Translations under genes and position numbers: made by a program
The notes under the pieces: model-generated
The model's input: the letters and a program-made list of their open reading frames with translations, nothing else
Told to the model about the DNA's origin: nothing
The model's database searches: none
Origin: an uncultured Bacilli bacterium
GTDB lineage: Bacteria > Bacillota_I > Bacilli_A > RF39 > UBA660
NCBI GenBank assembly: GCA_944331815.1
Contig: CALVIQ010000052.1
Location: 1 to 10,627 of the forward strand
DNA: 10,627 nucleotides
Reading direction: 5' to 3'
In this document: piece after piece, positions 1,256 to 10,627 of the stretch
Layout: the number at the start of each line of letters is the position of its first letter
How positions within the stretch are numbered: position 1 is the stretch's first letter

Positions 1256-3269
1256 AAAAGTAATTATAATAAGCGTTATAGTTGTAGTATTATTAATAAT
1301 TGGATTATTGGTATACAATTTTTTAACTAAAGAAGATAAAATAACAACTTTAAATTTGTTTGAAAAACAATGGATTGAAAGCAACAAAAATAATGTTATT
1401 GACATGTCAATAATTGATGGTATTCCTATTTTAAGTTATAATGGTGAAGGAATAATTATAGATTTTTTAGATTCATTAAATAAAGAAACAAATTTATCAT
1501 TTAATAAGGTATCTTATAAGTTAGGTGATGAAATAAAATCAGATTATTCATTTAAATTAGTTGAAAATGTTTCTGAAAATCAGATTACAATTTATGAAGA
1601 TAATTATGTTTTAGTTACAAAAAATGAAACATTTTTAACAATTGATGAATTAAAAGGATTAACTATTGGTGTTTTAAATGAAAATCTAAATAATATTAAT
1701 AATTATTTGTTCAAAGCTGATGTAAGTTATAAAACATATGATAGTGAAGAAGAATTGATAAATGAATTTAATAAAGATGATACAAAATTAAATGCAATTG
1801 TAATGCTTAAGACTACTAATTTAAAACAATTAATTGATAATAATTATAAAATTGCTTATAATATAAGCGATTATAAAAAATATTATGTTTTAGATTTAGG
1901 TGAAACAGAAAAATTAAATACTATTTTAACGAAATATTACAATAAATGGGCAAGTAATAATTATGACGAATTATATAATAAATATCTATCAAAAAATTAC
2001 TTAAATTTTAAAAATATTAATGATGAAGAAACTGTTAAATTTCGTAGTAAAAGGTATGTTTATGGATTTATTGAAAACGCACCTTACGATACTTTGTTAG
2101 ATAATAAATTAGCTGGAATAAATTATCAATTATTATCTAGTTTTTCAAAACTAACTAATGCTGAAATTAGTTATAAAAAATATAATAATATAAATAGCTT
2201 ATTAGAAGCATTTAATACTAATCAAATTGATTTATTTTATGGAATAAATTCTAATACAAATTATAATATTGATACATATAAAACAGTTCCAGTTTATGAA
2301 AATTCAATTATTATTTTAAAACATTCATCAAATGATAAAATAATTAATTCAATTAAATCATTAGATAATGTTGTATCATTAGAATCTACTAATGTTTCAG
2401 AATATTTAGTTAATAATAATATAACTGTTACTGCATATTCTAATATGGAAGATCTAATTAACAACATTAACGAAGATAGTGTTATAGCTTTAGACACTTA
2501 TAATTACAATTATTATACAAATGATTTGAAAAATTATATTATAGCTTATCAATATGATTGTGATAATAATTCATTTATAAGCAGAGATATTTCTGATAAT
2601 GAAATATTTAATAATTTTTTTGATTTTTATATAAGATTTAACGATACTCAAAAATTTATAACTGATGGTTTAAGTGAACTATTGCTAGTTAACAAAACGC
2701 CAATAGTCTTAAAAAATTTTGCAGTTATTTTAGGTAGTATTGTTGGTATTTTATTAGTGGTTTTAGCAATAATAAAAATAAAACCAAAGAAAAAAAATAA
2801 GAATTTATCAAAAGAGGATAAATTACGTTACATTGATGCTTTAACATCTTTAAAAAATCGTACTTATTTAAATGATTCTATTGAAAGATGGGATAATACT
2901 GATGTGTATCCTCAAACTATAATTATAGTTGATTTAAATAATATTGCATATATTAATGATAATTATGGACATTCTGAAGGCGATGAAGTAATTAAGCAAG
3001 CCGCAAATATATTAATTTTAAATCAAATGGAAAATAGTGAGATAATAAGAACTAATGGAAATGAATTTTTGATATATTTAATAGGGTATGAAGAAAAACA
3101 AGTTATTACATATATGAGAAAATTAGGAAAAGAATTAAAAGAATTGAAACATGGTTTTGGTTCTGCTATTGGTTATAGTATGATAAATGATGCTATAAAA
3201 ACTATTGATGATGCTATAAATGAAGCAACTTTAGATATGAAGAATAACAAAGAGGAACAAAAGGATTGA
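1245..3269 (+). CDS. Membrane receptor: two solute-binding-protein-like domains plus degenerate GGDEF domain
   Basis: About 674 aa from ATG 1245, preferred because AGGTGA (1234-1239) lies 5 nt before it; the alternative GTG 1236 overlaps that site. The order is: membrane helix (about residues 6-27); two extracellular modules resembling family-3 solute-binding proteins (about 35-265 and 270-480, the second with LLEAFNTNQIDLFYG, like the family's GxxDLxxG segment); a second membrane helix (about 491-513); then a cytoplasmic GGDEF domain (about 525-670). The GGDEF domain keeps DALTSLKNR, the DL of the first metal site, IND, GH and GD. The signature itself is NGNEF (3054-3068): the third, metal-binding acidic residue is Asn, and the lysine of the DxDxFK motif is missing. 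No RxxD inhibitory site precedes it. The fold is confident; cyclic-di-GMP synthesis is doubtful, so it more likely acts as a nucleotide-binding or regulatory module. Ends in TGA, overlapping the next gene's start. Confidence 0.85.
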   Translation: MKNKKVIIISVIVVVLLIIGLLVYNFLTKEDKITTLNLFEKQWIESNKNNVIDMSIIDGIPILSYNGEGIIIDFLDSLNKETNLSFNKVSYKLGDEIKSDYSFKLVENVSENQITIYEDNYVLVTKNETFLTIDELKGLTIGVLNENLNNINNYLFKADVSYKTYDSEEELINEFNKDDTKLNAIVMLKTTNLKQLIDNNYKIAYNISDYKKYYVLDLGETEKLNTILTKYYNKWASNNYDELYNKYLSKNYLNFKNINDEETVKFRSKRYVYGFIENAPYDTLLDNKLAGINYQLLSSFSKLTNAEISYKKYNNINSLLEAFNTNQIDLFYGINSNTNYNIDTYKTVPVYENSIIILKHSSNDKIINSIKSLDNVVSLESTNVSEYLVNNNITVTAYSNMEDLINNINEDSVIALDTYNYNYYTNDLKNYIIAYQYDCDNNSFISRDISDNEIFNNFFDFYIRFNDTQKFITDGLSELLLVNKTPIVLKNFAVILGSIVGILLVVLAIIKIKPKKKNKNLSKEDKLRYIDALTSLKNRTYLNDSIERWDNTDVYPQTIIIVDLNNIAYINDNYGHSEGDEVIKQAANILILNQMENSEIIRTNGNEFLIYLIGYEEKQVITYMRKLGKELKELKHGFGSAIGYSMINDAIKTIDDAINEATLDMKNNKEEQKD

Positions 3270-4069
3270 AAAAATTTTTAATTAATTTATGGCATGTGCT
3301 AAGATTACCAGAAATGTTGATACTTCCTGGTAATCTGGCTTTTTTTCTTATTCTTTCTTTAGCTCCAATAGCATCGTTATTTGGTATGGTTGCATCTAGT
3401 TTATCTTTGTCAACAACTAGTATTGTTAATTATATTAGTAATTTGTTTCCAGACGAAGTTGTAGAAATTGTTTTACCTTTTTTTGATGGCTTAAATGTGA
3501 CAAATATAATATTCGTTATAATTGGTTTTTTTGTTGCAAGTAATGCATCTGATAGTTTAATAACAGCTTCTAATATGTTATATAAAATTAAAAGTAAAAA
3601 CTATATTTATCGAAGAATTAAAGCTTTATTTATGACTTTTTGGTTATTAATATTATTTGTTGTAACATTAATTGTTTTAGCTTTTGGTTCATTTATATTA
3701 ACAAAATTATCATCTTTTGGCATTCTAGGTGAATTTATTGCTAGTAATTATATAATTATTTTAATAGTAAAAACTATAGTTGCTTTCTTTACTATATTTT
3801 TAATTATTAAAATTCTTTATACTCTAGCACCAGACAAAAAAATAAAAAGTAAATATGTAAATCATGGTAGTTTATTTGCTACTATTGCCATCATTATTGT
3901 TAGTACTTTTTATTCATTTTATGTAAATAATATTGCTCATTATGATATTATTTATGGTAGTTTAGCAAATATTGCAATCTTAATGTTATTAATTTATTTT
4001 ATATCTTATATTATTGTTCTTGGAATAGCAATTAATCATAATTACTATGAAATGAATAATAGTGATTAA
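3266..4069 (+). CDS. YihY/BrkB-family inner-membrane protein
   Basis: A polytopic membrane protein of 267 aa with about six hydrophobic segments. The first is preceded by the characteristic N-terminal stretch LPGNLAFFLILSLAPIASL, which matches the family's conserved aaLaFxxxxSLaP pattern. Members are widespread; they were once annotated as ribonuclease BN or serum-resistance BrkB, neither of which is a safe functional assignment, and the transported substrate, if any, is unknown. The start is TTG at 3266, overlapping the upstream TGA by two bases, with AGAGGA (3251-3256) placed 9 nt ahead; no ATG occurs until residue 17, after conserved sequence has begun. It is the last gene of the sensor operon, so it may be co-regulated with, or controlled by, the GGDEF receptor (inference). 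Confidence 0.88.
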   Translation: MKKFLINLWHVLRLPEMLILPGNLAFFLILSLAPIASLFGMVASSLSLSTTSIVNYISNLFPDEVVEIVLPFFDGLNVTNIIFVIIGFFVASNASDSLITASNMLYKIKSKNYIYRRIKALFMTFWLLILFVVTLIVLAFGSFILTKLSSFGILGEFIASNYIIILIVKTIVAFFTIFLIIKILYTLAPDKKIKSKYVNHGSLFATIAIIIVSTFYSFYVNNIAHYDIIYGSLANIAILMLLIYFISYIIVLGIAINHNYYEMNNSD

Positions 4070-4247: not shown

Positions 4248-5702
4248 TTGAATAAGAAAGGTTTTGCAATATCTGGTATTATATATTCGTTGTTAATATT
4301 ATTTTTATTATTATTGTTTAGTATTTTAAGTATTATGGGTGCTAGGAAAATGATTTTAGATAAACTTAAAAATGAAGTAATGGAAGAATTAAATGGCGAA
4401 TCTGGAAATAGTGAAGAAATAACTAATGAATATACGGATAACAGCGGGGCAAATATTCCTAAATTATTAGATAAAATGGTGCCTATTAAATATGAAAATG
4501 ATAATTGGGTAGTAGCAGATACTAAACAAAAATGGTATGATTATGATGCCAAAGAATGGGCCAATGCAGTAGTATTAAATACAACTAAAAATGTAGGCGA
4601 AGTAGTTACAGAAGATGATATTGATTTGTGGTATGTATGGATACCAAGATATAAATATCAGTTGTTTAATGCAAATAATGGAAGTGTAGAACCACAAGAA
4701 ATTCAAATACAATTTGAAAGTGGAACTTCTTCAACTGGAACAGTAAGTTGTATGGATGCAATTTCAACATCGGGAACAACAAGTGAAATTTGTACAAATG
4801 CAACCAATGGTGCTTGGTATACTCATCCAGCATTTACCTTAGGAGATACAGAATTAACAGGCTTTTGGGTAGGAAAATTTGAAGTAAGTGGAAGTACAAG
4901 TAAAATAACTATAAAACCAAATGTAACAAGTTTAAGAAGTCAAACAGTATCTTCATTTTTCACAGCCATTCAAAATATAAATACAACCTATAATTTAAAC
5001 GGCGATAGTCATATGATGAAAAATATGGAATGGGGAGCAGTAGCATACTTATCTCATAGTAAATATGGAATGACTGAAGAAGTATATATAAATAATAGTA
5101 GTAGTTATTATACGGGAAGAAGTGGAGGAAATGTTGGAGGAAGTACTAATACTGTAGCAACCCAATATCCAAGTAGTTCAACATCTTCAAATATATATTA
5201 TAATTATGGATATTATACTTATGATGGCAAAATTGTAAATTATGATGGAAGTATTGGGGATTATGCAAGTGATCGAACATTAGGAACAAAAGCAAGTACG
5301 ACCGGGAATATCTATGGGATATATGATATGAGTGGAGGAGTTTGGGAGTATGTAATGGGCAATATGGTAAATAGTAGTGGAGCATTTTATTCAAGTAGTG
5401 CAGGGTTTAGTACCCCACCAGATTCAATATATTACGATAGCTATACATATGGAACTTCTAATAGTACCCACGGACGAGGAAAATTAGGAGATGCAATAAA
5501 AGAAACATTAAAGACTTTTGGAAGTAGTTCAGGTGGATGGTATAGTGATTACGCGTACTTTCCGCGCTCTAGTTATTCTTGGTTCTATCGGGGCGGCCGC
5601 TTCGATGAAGGTTCGAATGCCGGTTTGTTCAACTTCTCTAGGAACATAGGTAGTAGTAGTTTCTTCTATTCCGCCCGTGCAGTTGCGTGTGTTCGCGGGT
5701 AG
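4248..5702 (+). CDS. Pilin-like anchored FGE/C-type-lectin-fold surface protein, probable DGR target
   Basis: 484 aa from TTG 4248. The frame is open back to an ATG at 4164, but that lies inside the preceding terminator and upstream of the promoter; AGAGGGTG precedes the TTG. The N-terminus, MNKKGFAISGI followed by about 20 hydrophobic residues, resembles a type IV prepilin (basic leader, Gly-Phe, hydrophobic helix, then a charged amphipathic stretch), but the usual Glu at +5 is absent. After a short linker, residues about 120-484 resemble the formylglycine-generating-enzyme/sulfatase-modifying C-type-lectin fold: DLWYVWIPRYKY, GFWVGKFEVSG (205-215), MEWGAVAYLS, DMSGGVWEY (360-368) and a final WFYRGGRF ... 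AGLFNF ... ARAV block (445-479). This fold with a GGR/AGxF end is typical of variable proteins diversified by retroelements. The last 150 bp differ sharply in composition. No enzyme activity is implied; a ligand-binding surface display role is inferred. Confidence 0.85.
   Translation: MNKKGFAISGIIYSLLILFLLLLFSILSIMGARKMILDKLKNEVMEELNGESGNSEEITNEYTDNSGANIPKLLDKMVPIKYENDNWVVADTKQKWYDYDAKEWANAVVLNTTKNVGEVVTEDDIDLWYVWIPRYKYQLFNANNGSVEPQEIQIQFESGTSSTGTVSCMDAISTSGTTSEICTNATNGAWYTHPAFTLGDTELTGFWVGKFEVSGSTSKITIKPNVTSLRSQTVSSFFTAIQNINTTYNLNGDSHMMKNMEWGAVAYLSHSKYGMTEEVYINNSSSYYTGRSGGNVGGSTNTVATQYPSSSTSSNIYYNYGYYTYDGKIVNYDGSIGDYASDRTLGTKASTTGNIYGIYDMSGGVWEYVMGNMVNSSGAFYSSSAGFSTPPDSIYYDSYTYGTSNSTHGRGKLGDAIKETLKTFGSSSGGWYSDYAYFPRSSYSWFYRGGRFDEGSNAGLFNFSRNIGSSSFFYSARAVACVRG
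5550..5702 (+). other. Probable DGR variable region (VR)
   Basis: The 3' end of the lectin-fold gene counts 77 G/C in 150 bases (5551-5700; 51%) against 55 in the preceding 150 (37%) and far less in neighbouring genes. Codons switch to TAC, GCG, CGC, GGC, TTC, TCG and AAC, which are rare elsewhere here. The encoded residues 435-484 end the C-type-lectin fold, exactly where adenine-mutagenised variable regions lie, with constant positions (W445, RGG 448-450, G455, AG 458-459, F461, F463, G468, R477, V479) separated by candidate variable ones. The last stretch (5671-5699, 21 of 29 G/C) would suit the IMH-like end where template-primed replacement initiates. The template repeat and reverse transcriptase are not in the window, so the call rests on composition, fold and position. 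Confidence 0.72.
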
Positions 5703-5729
5703 CAAATTTTAGTTTGCTACTTTCCTTTT
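5699..5729 (+). terminator. Hairpin directly after the variable region: weak terminator and/or DGR hairpin
   Basis: GTAGCAAA (5699-5706) and TTTGCTAC (5713-5720) form a perfect 8-bp stem around a 6-nt TTTTAG loop; the TAG stop codon sits inside the left arm. The following TTTCCTTTT is a broken T tract, so termination may be modest. DGR targets characteristically carry a hairpin/cruciform of this size just after the VR that promotes retrohoming, although the best-studied ones have a 4-nt loop. Confidence 0.65.
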
Positions 5730-5775: not shown

Positions 5776-6399
5776 ATGACATATGTAGTTGATAATATTG
5801 AATATGAAGTAGTGATAGAAAAAAAGAATAATAAAAATACTTATATTAGAATAAGAGATAATAAAATATATATAACAACTAATTATTTTGTAAATAAAAG
5901 TTATATTGAAAATTTATTAGACAAAAATTATGATGTTATAAAAAAAATGATTGAAAAAAGTAATCAAAAATTAGAAAGAAATAATAGATTTTATTATTTA
6001 AATAAAGAATATGATATTATATTTGTTAATTATTGTGATATTGAAATAAGTAACAATAAAATATTTGTTAAAAGTGAAGATTATTTAAATAAATGGTTAA
6101 AGAAGAATACGGAAATAATATTTAAAGAAAGGTTAGATTATATTTATAATTTATTTGAAGAAAGGATTCCTTATCCTAAATTAAAAATAAGAAAAATGAA
6201 GACTAGGTGGGGAGTTTGTAATAAAAATAATAGTATCACTTTAAATAGTGAATTAATTAAATATGGTTATGAGCAAATTGACTATGTAATTGTTCATGAA
6301 CTGAGTCATTTTATTCATTTTGATCATTCAAAGAATTTTTGGAGTTTAGTATCTAAATATTGTAAAAATTATAAAGAAATAAGAAAATCATTAAAATGA
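5776..6399 (+). CDS. YgjP-type (DUF45, M48-like) zinc metalloprotease
   Basis: 207 aa, a normal length for the YgjP/DUF45 family of SprT-like predicted zinc metallopeptidases. The N-terminal half is a strand-rich lysine-heavy domain starting IEYEVVIEKK. The catalytic part contains R144-W-G-V-C148, matching the family's RWGxC signature, then HELSHFIHFDHSKNFW: zinc ligands H174 and H178 with catalytic E175, and a third histidine (H184) six residues on, followed by the conserved NFW. All expected residues are present, so it should be active; physiological substrates are unknown. No signal peptide or membrane helix, so probably cytoplasmic. The start is taken as ATG 5776 because the family domain begins within a few residues of it; there is no Shine-Dalgarno sequence, fitting leaderless translation. 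It ends in TGA, 46 nt before the small gene that follows, with no terminator between. Confidence 0.9.
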   Translation: MTYVVDNIEYEVVIEKKNNKNTYIRIRDNKIYITTNYFVNKSYIENLLDKNYDVIKKMIEKSNQKLERNNRFYYLNKEYDIIFVNYCDIEISNNKIFVKSEDYLNKWLKKNTEIIFKERLDYIYNLFEERIPYPKLKIRKMKTRWGVCNKNNSITLNSELIKYGYEQIDYVIVHELSHFIHFDHSKNFWSLVSKYCKNYKEIRKSLK

Positions 6400-9465: not shown

Positions 9466-10627
9466 ATGGATAAAAAGAAAATTATAGCAATTATATTATT
9501 TATTTTATTAGGTTTATTTATTTTCACATTCGCTAATCCAGGACCTTCTACATTAGATCCAGTAGAAGTACCAGGTCAAGGTGAAGAAGATAAAGATGAT
9601 AATAAAGAACAAGATGAAACTCAAGATGAAGAAAATCAAGATGATGAACAAGACGAAAATAATAATGATCGTCCAGTTGTTGAAGTAGATGAAGCACCAG
9701 TAATTGAAATTAATCCAACAACAGTAACAATTTTATTTGGTCAAAATTATGATGTCATGACTGGCGTTAAAGCTAGAGATGATAATGATATTGTAAGAGT
9801 AACTTCATCTATTACTGATACAACTAAATTAGAAGTTGGAACTCATACAATTACATATGCAACTACTGATACAGCTAATCATACAACTACAGCAACAAGA
9901 ACTATCATTGTATTAGATCCAAAAGGAGATAATGATGATGATGGTTATACTAACGAAGAAGAAATAGAAAATGGAAATAATCCAGATGATAAAGAAGATC
10001 ATCCAGATTACAATTCAAATCCAACAATAGATTTTAGCTCATGTATGACTTCTATGGTAGTTTATGATGAATTACCAAATTTTGAAGAATGTGTTAAAGC
10101 AACTGATGAATTTTATGGAACAGAAGGAGTTACTATAGAAGTAACTAATGATGTTAATCCAAATCAATTTGGAAAATATACAATAACAGTAGTAGCAAAA
10201 GATAATTTAAATAATGAAACTACTGAAAGTTTTGAATTTGAAGTATTAAAAAGAAATGTAACAGTTACTATTAATAATGTAGAAGCAATTTATAAAGATG
10301 AAGTTAAACCATTAACATCAAATGCTTTAGAAATGGCTTATAATGGTAACGAAATTGATGTACAATTAAGTACTGAAGTAACTAATACTACACCTACTGG
10401 TAAATATGCAATTACTGGTACTTGGACAAATGAAAACTACAATGTTACATTTGTTGATGGTGTATATTCAATCACTTCAAAAACAATAACAGAAGAAGAT
10501 ATTAAAGAATTAGGTATCGAATTTAATGATGCAACATTTATATATGATGGAACAGAAAAATCATTATCAGTAAATAATTTACCAGAAGGATTTACAGTAA
10601 GTTATGAAAATAATGGTAAAGTAGATG
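9466..10627 (+). CDS. Large Ig/MBG-repeat surface protein with calcium-binding loop (3' end outside window)
   Basis: Open from ATG 9466 to the window end (387 codons, no stop), with GGGAGG (9451-9456) 9 nt upstream. An N-terminal signal/anchor helix (about 5-23) is followed by a low-complexity linker rich in Asp, Glu, Asn and Gln (about 38-70). Next comes an Ig-like module (about 78-150; ILFGQNYDVMTGVKA ... VGTHTITYATTD), of the DUF5011/HYR type. Residues 155-166 form a clean EF-hand-like loop (D155, D157, D159, G160, N163, E166), as in thrombospondin-3 or dockerin-type repeats. A second Ig-like module (about 186-262) has Cys193 and Cys209. An MBG-type module (about 263-345, ending NYNVTFVDGVYSI) follows, and another begins near 358 (FIYDGTEKSL). 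This is a typical adhesin-like stalk architecture. The C-terminal anchor, repeat number and function cannot be seen; extracellular location is well supported, adhesion is inferred. Confidence 0.85.
   Translation, partial: MDKKKIIAIILFILLGLFIFTFANPGPSTLDPVEVPGQGEEDKDDNKEQDETQDEENQDDEQDENNNDRPVVEVDEAPVIEINPTTVTILFGQNYDVMTGVKARDDNDIVRVTSSITDTTKLEVGTHTITYATTDTANHTTTATRTIIVLDPKGDNDDDGYTNEEEIENGNNPDDKEDHPDYNSNPTIDFSSCMTSMVVYDELPNFEECVKATDEFYGTEGVTIEVTNDVNPNQFGKYTITVVAKDNLNNETTESFEFEVLKRNVTVTINNVEAIYKDEVKPLTSNALEMAYNGNEIDVQLSTEVTNTTPTGKYAITGTWTNENYNVTFVDGVYSITSKTITEEDIKELGIEFNDATFIYDGTEKSLSVNNLPEGFTVSYENNGKVD

Follow-up and report, generated by a model that had tools for sequence, protein, structure and literature searches.

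What places a GC-rich patch at the very end of a gene in an otherwise GC-poor stretch of bacterial DNA? In the 10,627 nucleotides from an uncultured Bacilli bacterium analyzed here (the window), the last 150 bases before the stop codon of the gene at 4248..5702 (+ strand) include 77 G or C (51%; positions 5550..5699, + strand), the highest value among all 150-base stretches of the window. Elsewhere such stretches reach at most 40.7%, and the same gene upstream of the patch is 31.5% G+C. An initial annotation of the window had recorded this count, which our recount reproduced, and an abrupt change of codon choice near 5550, where composition indeed shifts abruptly. It had read the patch as the likely variable region (VR) of a diversity-generating retroelement (DGR). 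Such bacterial systems rewrite the ends of genes from a template whose copies are randomized at adenines. It had also stated that the window holds neither a reverse transcriptase (RT) nor a template. Ten open reading frames of the window were scanned with Pfam and gave no RT match, and a repeat scan of the window returned no second copy of the patch. We consider it very likely (probability of roughly 0.92) that 5550..5699 is the VR of a DGR target gene rewritten in trans; in relatives of the same genus, the cassette of template repeat (TR), MutS-domain-I-like gene, avd, and RT resides elsewhere on the chromosome.

The gene begins at a TTG codon (4248), ends at a TAG codon (5700..5702), and encodes 484 amino acids, with a KKGF-type pilin-like N-terminal helix preceding an FGE/C-type-lectin-like body. 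The closest fold to its AlphaFold model (pLDDT 72, with low confidence at residues 293–321 and 451–472, the latter part of the VR and below 50) is TaqVP of Thermus aquaticus (PDB 5vf4), a known DGR variable protein, which was matched by both structure and profile at 17% identity over 233 aligned residues. FGE-type and Mtd structures followed at lower Z, in agreement with the C-type-lectin/FGE fold originally proposed for the C terminus. The leader (4248..4394, + strand) consists of KKGFAISG and a long hydrophobic helix (model residues 4–49) and is pilin-like by sequence, model, and family profile, the last of which matches type IV pilins (PilE1, E 1.1e-6). Glu at mature position 5 is absent from the protein sequence, and the protein has no match to Pfam N_methyl (PF07963) up to E 0.1. 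The little-changed 3′ end of the VR (5670..5699, + strand, with a putative boundary) is a candidate initiation-of-mutagenic-homing (IMH) segment.

The gene is flanked by a BrkB-family gene (3266..4069, + strand), recognized by Pfam and in relatives, and by a YgjP-like metallopeptidase gene (5776..6399, + strand); a similar open reading frame also lies 3′ of the ortholog in the relative G001 (L298:13550-14173). At one edge, the window start cuts into a DUF1016/YhcG-type PDDEXK nuclease gene and leaves its 3′ part (1-711); at the other lies a surface protein (9466-10626), open at the window end, that bears Ig-like PF16403 and MBG domains. PF16403 is also found on some relatives of the target protein among the matches listed.

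A protein search with residues 280–484 returned 5652 relatives from 7994 scored candidates. Among the 120 matches listed, a frame of the form WYSDYAxFPxSSxSWFxRGG...AGLFxF...SARAV recurs behind differing N termini, and its variable places hold N, S, Y, D, H, F, G, R, and I, among others. For the closest 20 of the matches listed, column entropy averages 1.13 bits over residues 435–484 and 0.30 over residues 155–434. Residues 405 and 427 (window 5460-5462 and 5526-5528), which lie upstream of the template's reach, are hypervariable in these 20 as well. Bacterial genome contigs were then scanned with a 40-sequence alignment, and the best 80 of at least 502 confirmed relatives were kept. They represent 78 distinct loci, and the metagenome-assembled genomes that hold them carry the labels uncultured Bacilli, Bacillales, or Tenericutes. 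A BrkB gene was found in all 12 relatives examined as genomes, and a VR gene lies immediately 3′ of it in 11 (the exception is G004), which marks the window target as a fixed chromosomal gene.

Among the 78 loci, the C terminus encoded in the window also retrieved five Asn-rich copies lying outside variable genes (L005, L009, L033, L070, and L073), one example translating as ANFPNSSNSWFNRGGNYNNGSNAGLFNFNNN... at L005:9271-9417. Such copies are TRs; overall, TRs were located in G004 (L005:9268-9417) and, one each, in G008, G009, G011, and G012. The near-copy that the initial annotation had suggested seeking is thus present in relatives of the window's organism. The G004 TR is 47% G+C within surroundings of 24%, so the GC-rich patch of the window can be understood as the imprint of a GC-rich template.

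The L005 locus reads variable gene, TR, MutS-domain-I-like frame, Avd (114 amino acids), and RT (344 amino acids, with IPIGNYTSQ and FMDDF motifs). The IGNYTSQ motif is of the IGxxxSQ type anticipated for a DGR-type RT beside the template. An RT with IGNYTSQ, an Avd-like frame, and a MutS-I-like frame occur downstream of the TR at L005, L009, L070, L073 (where the Avd frame is in two pieces), and G009:C76 (L086/L139). In L086, the three cassette genes share a contig with the TR. Four of the five TRs first retrieved therefore adjoin all three genes; the fifth, L033 in G012, has no such RT adjacent, and none was found elsewhere in the G012 genome. Pfam matches over the cut-off were obtained for RVT_1 and bAvd in L005 and for MutS_I in the G009 cassette, and the small L005 protein carries the PHROG label "Avd protein of DGR." The best PDB sequence match of the RT is 8ub7 (E 6e-45), which we take to be the RT of phage BPP-1.

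The composition shift at 5550 could alternatively mark DNA of foreign origin or a structured RNA element, in which case the lectin likeness would be incidental. We give this almost no credence: the patch is in frame and aligns from end to end with same-genus TRs and VRs, an alignment that refutes both forms of the reading, and the target protein has no match in the phage records searched. An RNA gene at the patch was rejected on the lack of an Rfam match. Neither the target protein nor the RT matched a viral contig collection when queried with single-protein patterns, which are sensitive to close relatives only; the RT matches 133 phage records, every one below 60% identity.

At E 1e-40 or better, the RT is found in 7 of 18 genus genomes. 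Full-length copies at least 64% identical are carried by G004, G008, G009, and G011, the G005 match is partial (93%) amid frames that carry stops (L307/L310), and those of G001 and G286 are 39–41% identical. TR/VR matches at E 1e-10 extend to 12 of the 18 genomes. At the family level, 291 genomes were sampled: RT matches at E 1e-20 or better, which include distant RTs, occur in 79 of them, and matches to a TR query at E 1e-5 in 33. No TR belonging to the window's own species was recognized in the 12 relatives, the 18 genus genomes, or the family matches inspected, a part of those from the 291 genomes. Several elements appear incomplete, including the G012 TR (L207) without such an RT, the RT fragment of G005, and a TR-like remnant in G058 (L227) whose 5′ part is template-like and whose 3′ part is not, in a genome with no close RT. 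G119:C14 holds equal RT scores near 20128 and 149841 with equal spacing to TR-like matches, perhaps a duplicated cassette.

Adenine specificity was assessed by comparing 28 VR genes in the five TR-bearing genomes, each with its own genome's TR; genes with 0–4 non-A differences per ~100 positions were termed in step. Thirteen of the 28 fall in this group (G004 1/2, G008 1/8, G009 8/9, G011 3/5, and G012 0/4), while the other 15 have at least 16 non-A differences. The VR adjacent to the G004 TR differs at 15/36 A and 0/110 non-A positions, with one 3-base gap, and its G008 counterpart at 10/39 A and 0/110 non-A. Three of the five G011 VRs have 0–3 non-A differences per ~100. One of these, L208 (G011:C26), carries an in-frame TGA where the G011 TR has AGA, which random replacement of A could yield.

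G009 provides the most extensive case. Eight of its nine VRs differ from the single TR at 14–22 of 38–39 A positions and at 1–4 of ~100 others (pooled, 145/306 A vs 21/803 non-A), and the eight genes are spread over eight contigs, one of which is the TR's own. Among them is the ortholog of the window gene (L191), which differs from the TR at 21/38 A and 3/100 non-A positions. Given that the TR lies on another contig, this ortholog is a target in trans. The proposal that the window gene is diversified from a distance, as one of several targets of one element, therefore finds its counterpart in G009. Not every ortholog stays in step with its TR, as those of G011, G008, and G012 have 19/100, 31/91, and 21/66 non-A differences, respectively. 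For the relatives, sequence thus establishes the pairing of TRs with VRs, its adenine specificity, the genes for RT and Avd, and the existence of remote matching targets.

The same pattern extends to the window. By sequence comparison, the window VR fits the G004 TR, from which it differs at 19/39 A and 10/111 non-A positions (Fisher p 5e-7). Seven of the 10 non-A differences are common to at least one other VR of the group. The remaining three, at 5606, 5609, and 5662, are private to the window VR among ten other VRs compared and fit no template seen. Excess variation at template adenines among strains, which the initial annotation had named as a check, is apparent in the orthologs: the window VR differs from that of G002 at 21/39 TR-A columns and 5/111 non-A columns, from that of G003 at 22/39 and 11/108, and from that of G001 at 25/39 and 11/102. 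Differences between these genomes are thus strongly, though not absolutely, concentrated at TR-adenine columns. Relative to G002, G003, and G001, changed codons in the VR are 3/15, 1/17, and 1/19 synonymous/nonsynonymous, compared with 70/53, 68/49, and 73/61 upstream. The patch is accordingly well supported as a DGR VR by the TR alignment, the adenine-biased differences, and the RT and Avd genes of relatives, and it is very probably diversified from a distance, as in at least one relative's ortholog.

A variable lectin end might also arise with no retroelement involved, through ordinary diversifying selection or through gene conversion between paralogs. Paralogs with the domain are indeed numerous (56 matches in the 12 relative genomes, although 5 of these are TRs), and residues 405 and 427 vary outside the reach of the TR. 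Selection, however, would not limit changes to the A positions of a separate noncoding copy while sparing other bases, third positions included, and the TRs adjoin MutS-I-like, Avd, and RT genes in four of five cases. We regard this origin as very improbable.

DGR target sites can be marked by a hairpin near the stop codon. In BPP-1, this hairpin is required, with stem structure mattering over stem sequence and the loop acting in a sequence-dependent manner, according to the accessible text of PMC3240598. The window contains a candidate counterpart at 5700..5719 (+ strand), an AT-rich inverted repeat that includes the TAG stop (TAGCAAAT-TTTA-GTTTGCTA; 8-bp stem with one G-T pair and a 4-base loop). 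Similar inverted repeats number 7 in the window versus 4.1 expected, so the window hairpin alone is no evidence. Across the relatives, an 8–10-bp stem with a 4-base loop at the stop was found for 10 of 13 in-step VRs and for 1 of the 15 others (L204); the out-of-step L197 and L200 have different inverted repeats there, with 3-base loops. Stems vary by group (TAGCAAAC or GATTTCAAAC), as do loops (TTTA, GTCA, GAAA, and GAGA). GAAA and GAGA occur in G009 and G011; the loop criterion for phage DGRs is GRNA, while the window loop is TTTA. Since L191 is in step without a hairpin, the structure is not indispensable.

A DGR may have made the patch and since been lost or have decayed in the window's strain, leaving the VR to drift slowly. 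This scenario is a subcase of the DGR origin and differs from it on present activity. The genus contains decayed or incomplete elements (in G012, G058, and G005), no RT close to this type was found in G001, G002, G003, or G007, whose VRs most resemble that of the window, and the three private non-A differences and the out-of-step orthologs of G008, G011, and G012 would also fit. Against such drift, the window and G002 VRs differ at only 5 of 111 non-A columns, compared with third-position differences in 94 of 428 upstream codons; the VR frame is therefore more recent than the remainder of the gene. Moreover, incomplete assemblies can drop a repeat-bearing cassette; that of G009 sits on a 3.1-kb contig starting inside a VR gene. 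On balance, loss of the element seems unlikely, albeit a possibility of some weight. For the DGR reading with a remote cassette, we infer that the window's own genome carries the same cassette, that it is presently active, and that the target proteins are displayed on pili and bind ligands.

Drawing on established DGR knowledge, the TR would be transcribed, and a complex of Avd and RT would copy it, placing random bases opposite adenines. The resulting cDNA would take the place of the VR that closes each of several pilin-like genes. The common 3′ end would mark the target, together with the stop-codon hairpin at most of the in-step sites. Variable loops would then cap an FGE/C-type-lectin-like domain on a pilin-like stalk, the likely output being a repertoire of surface-displayed binders.

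The pilin connection recurs among the relatives. All five readable N termini among the eight in-step G009 targets are pilin-like, and the paralogs L008:6278-7915 and L008:4243-5961 match PF07963 over the cut-off. Locus L008 (G007) encodes a T2SSF protein and an A24 prepilin peptidase. Directly after them come two prepilins, of which the first to be named carries DUF6273 and, on visual inspection, a pair of VR-like ends, and the other has a window-type end. The pilus machinery families PF00482 and PF00437 occur in 12/12 relatives, but their similar frequency in control genomes (13/14 and 14/14) means that their presence says little about pilus assembly.

Eight of the 12 genomes carry a second MutS-I/Avd/RT operon (RT of 332 amino acids in G004, with IGNLTSQ), counted where RT identity was at least 75%, and a TR was seen by eye in 6 of 10 stretches upstream of such operons. 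Comparison of this second template with the neighboring prepilin gene covered five cases: L145 (A 14/27, non-A 0/51), L131 (10/29, 2/58), L130 (12/29, 4/58), L132 (11/27, 6/59), and L128 (13/27, 9/60). The operon adjoins prepilin genes in L132 and L131, and DUF6273 is Pfam-confirmed in L132 and L008; the genes at L132:3806-5509, L131:3515-5530, and L008:4243-5964 each have two VR-like ends by eye. From these comparisons, the second DGR of the relatives is assigned DUF6273 prepilins as its targets. The genus may run two separate DGRs that both act on type IV prepilin-like genes, the first diversifying FGE-like domains and the second DUF6273 domains, with two templates continually re-randomizing the binding ends of dispersed pilus subunits to give a diversified pilus repertoire. 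We judge the odds of this broader proposal to be even.

The relatives offer a natural system of one template and many targets, with in-step and out-of-step copies, suited to asking which features (hairpin, common 3′ end, or distance) turn a remote site into a target. They also link type IV pilin-like proteins with hypervariation by DGRs. The locus also illustrates that a remote DGR target with no retroelement nearby can be detected from the composition of raw sequence alone. A large metagenomic survey states that its own method would miss such targets (PMC8144416, in the part available). The literature on DGRs, pilins, and prepilins within our scope, outside which most subscription papers fall, contained no type IV pilin as a DGR target in its accessible text; putative pilin structures linked to DUF1566 targets are mentioned there from earlier work (PMC6642488).

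The kind of element is already known; new here are a single template that matches as many as eight dispersed genes, a pair of DGRs aimed at prepilin-like targets, and a conserved place for a remote target. As in the Bordetella phage BPP-1 DGR (mtd, TR, avd, and brt), the TR-to-VR pattern is adenine-specific, Avd accompanies the RT, the VR ends a C-type-lectin-fold gene, and a candidate hairpin with an 8-bp stem and 4-base loop lies by the stop codon (PMC3240598, accessible text). Unlike BPP-1, the cassette here is away from most targets, one template serves many genes, a MutS-domain-I-like gene precedes avd, the targets are pilin-like, and the candidate hairpin of the window has an AT-rich stem-loop with TTTA as its loop. 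TaqVP shares the fold, but the N-terminal pilin-like helix of the target lies outside the aligned range (model residues 75–482). The cellular DGRs of Thiohalocapsa PB-PSB1 similarly include several DGRs per genome, FGE/CLec targets, and candidate in-trans targets; there, nine loci and 15 target genes are tied to NACHT/STAND-type conflict systems (PMC10907252, in the text available), whereas here one TR matches eight dispersed G009 genes. DUF6273, the domain of the second DGR's targets, is C-type-lectin-like and carries the VR in phage DGR targets, receptor-binding proteins included (available portions of PMC11792537 and PMC10743442), whereas the genes described here are chromosomal and have N_methyl prepilin leaders. 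Finally, Bacteroides DGRs that target the tip pilins of type V pili (a finding cited by PMC12632263) likewise diversify pilin-type surface proteins in gut bacteria, while the proteins considered here combine type IV pilin-like leaders with FGE-like and DUF6273 domains in Bacilli.
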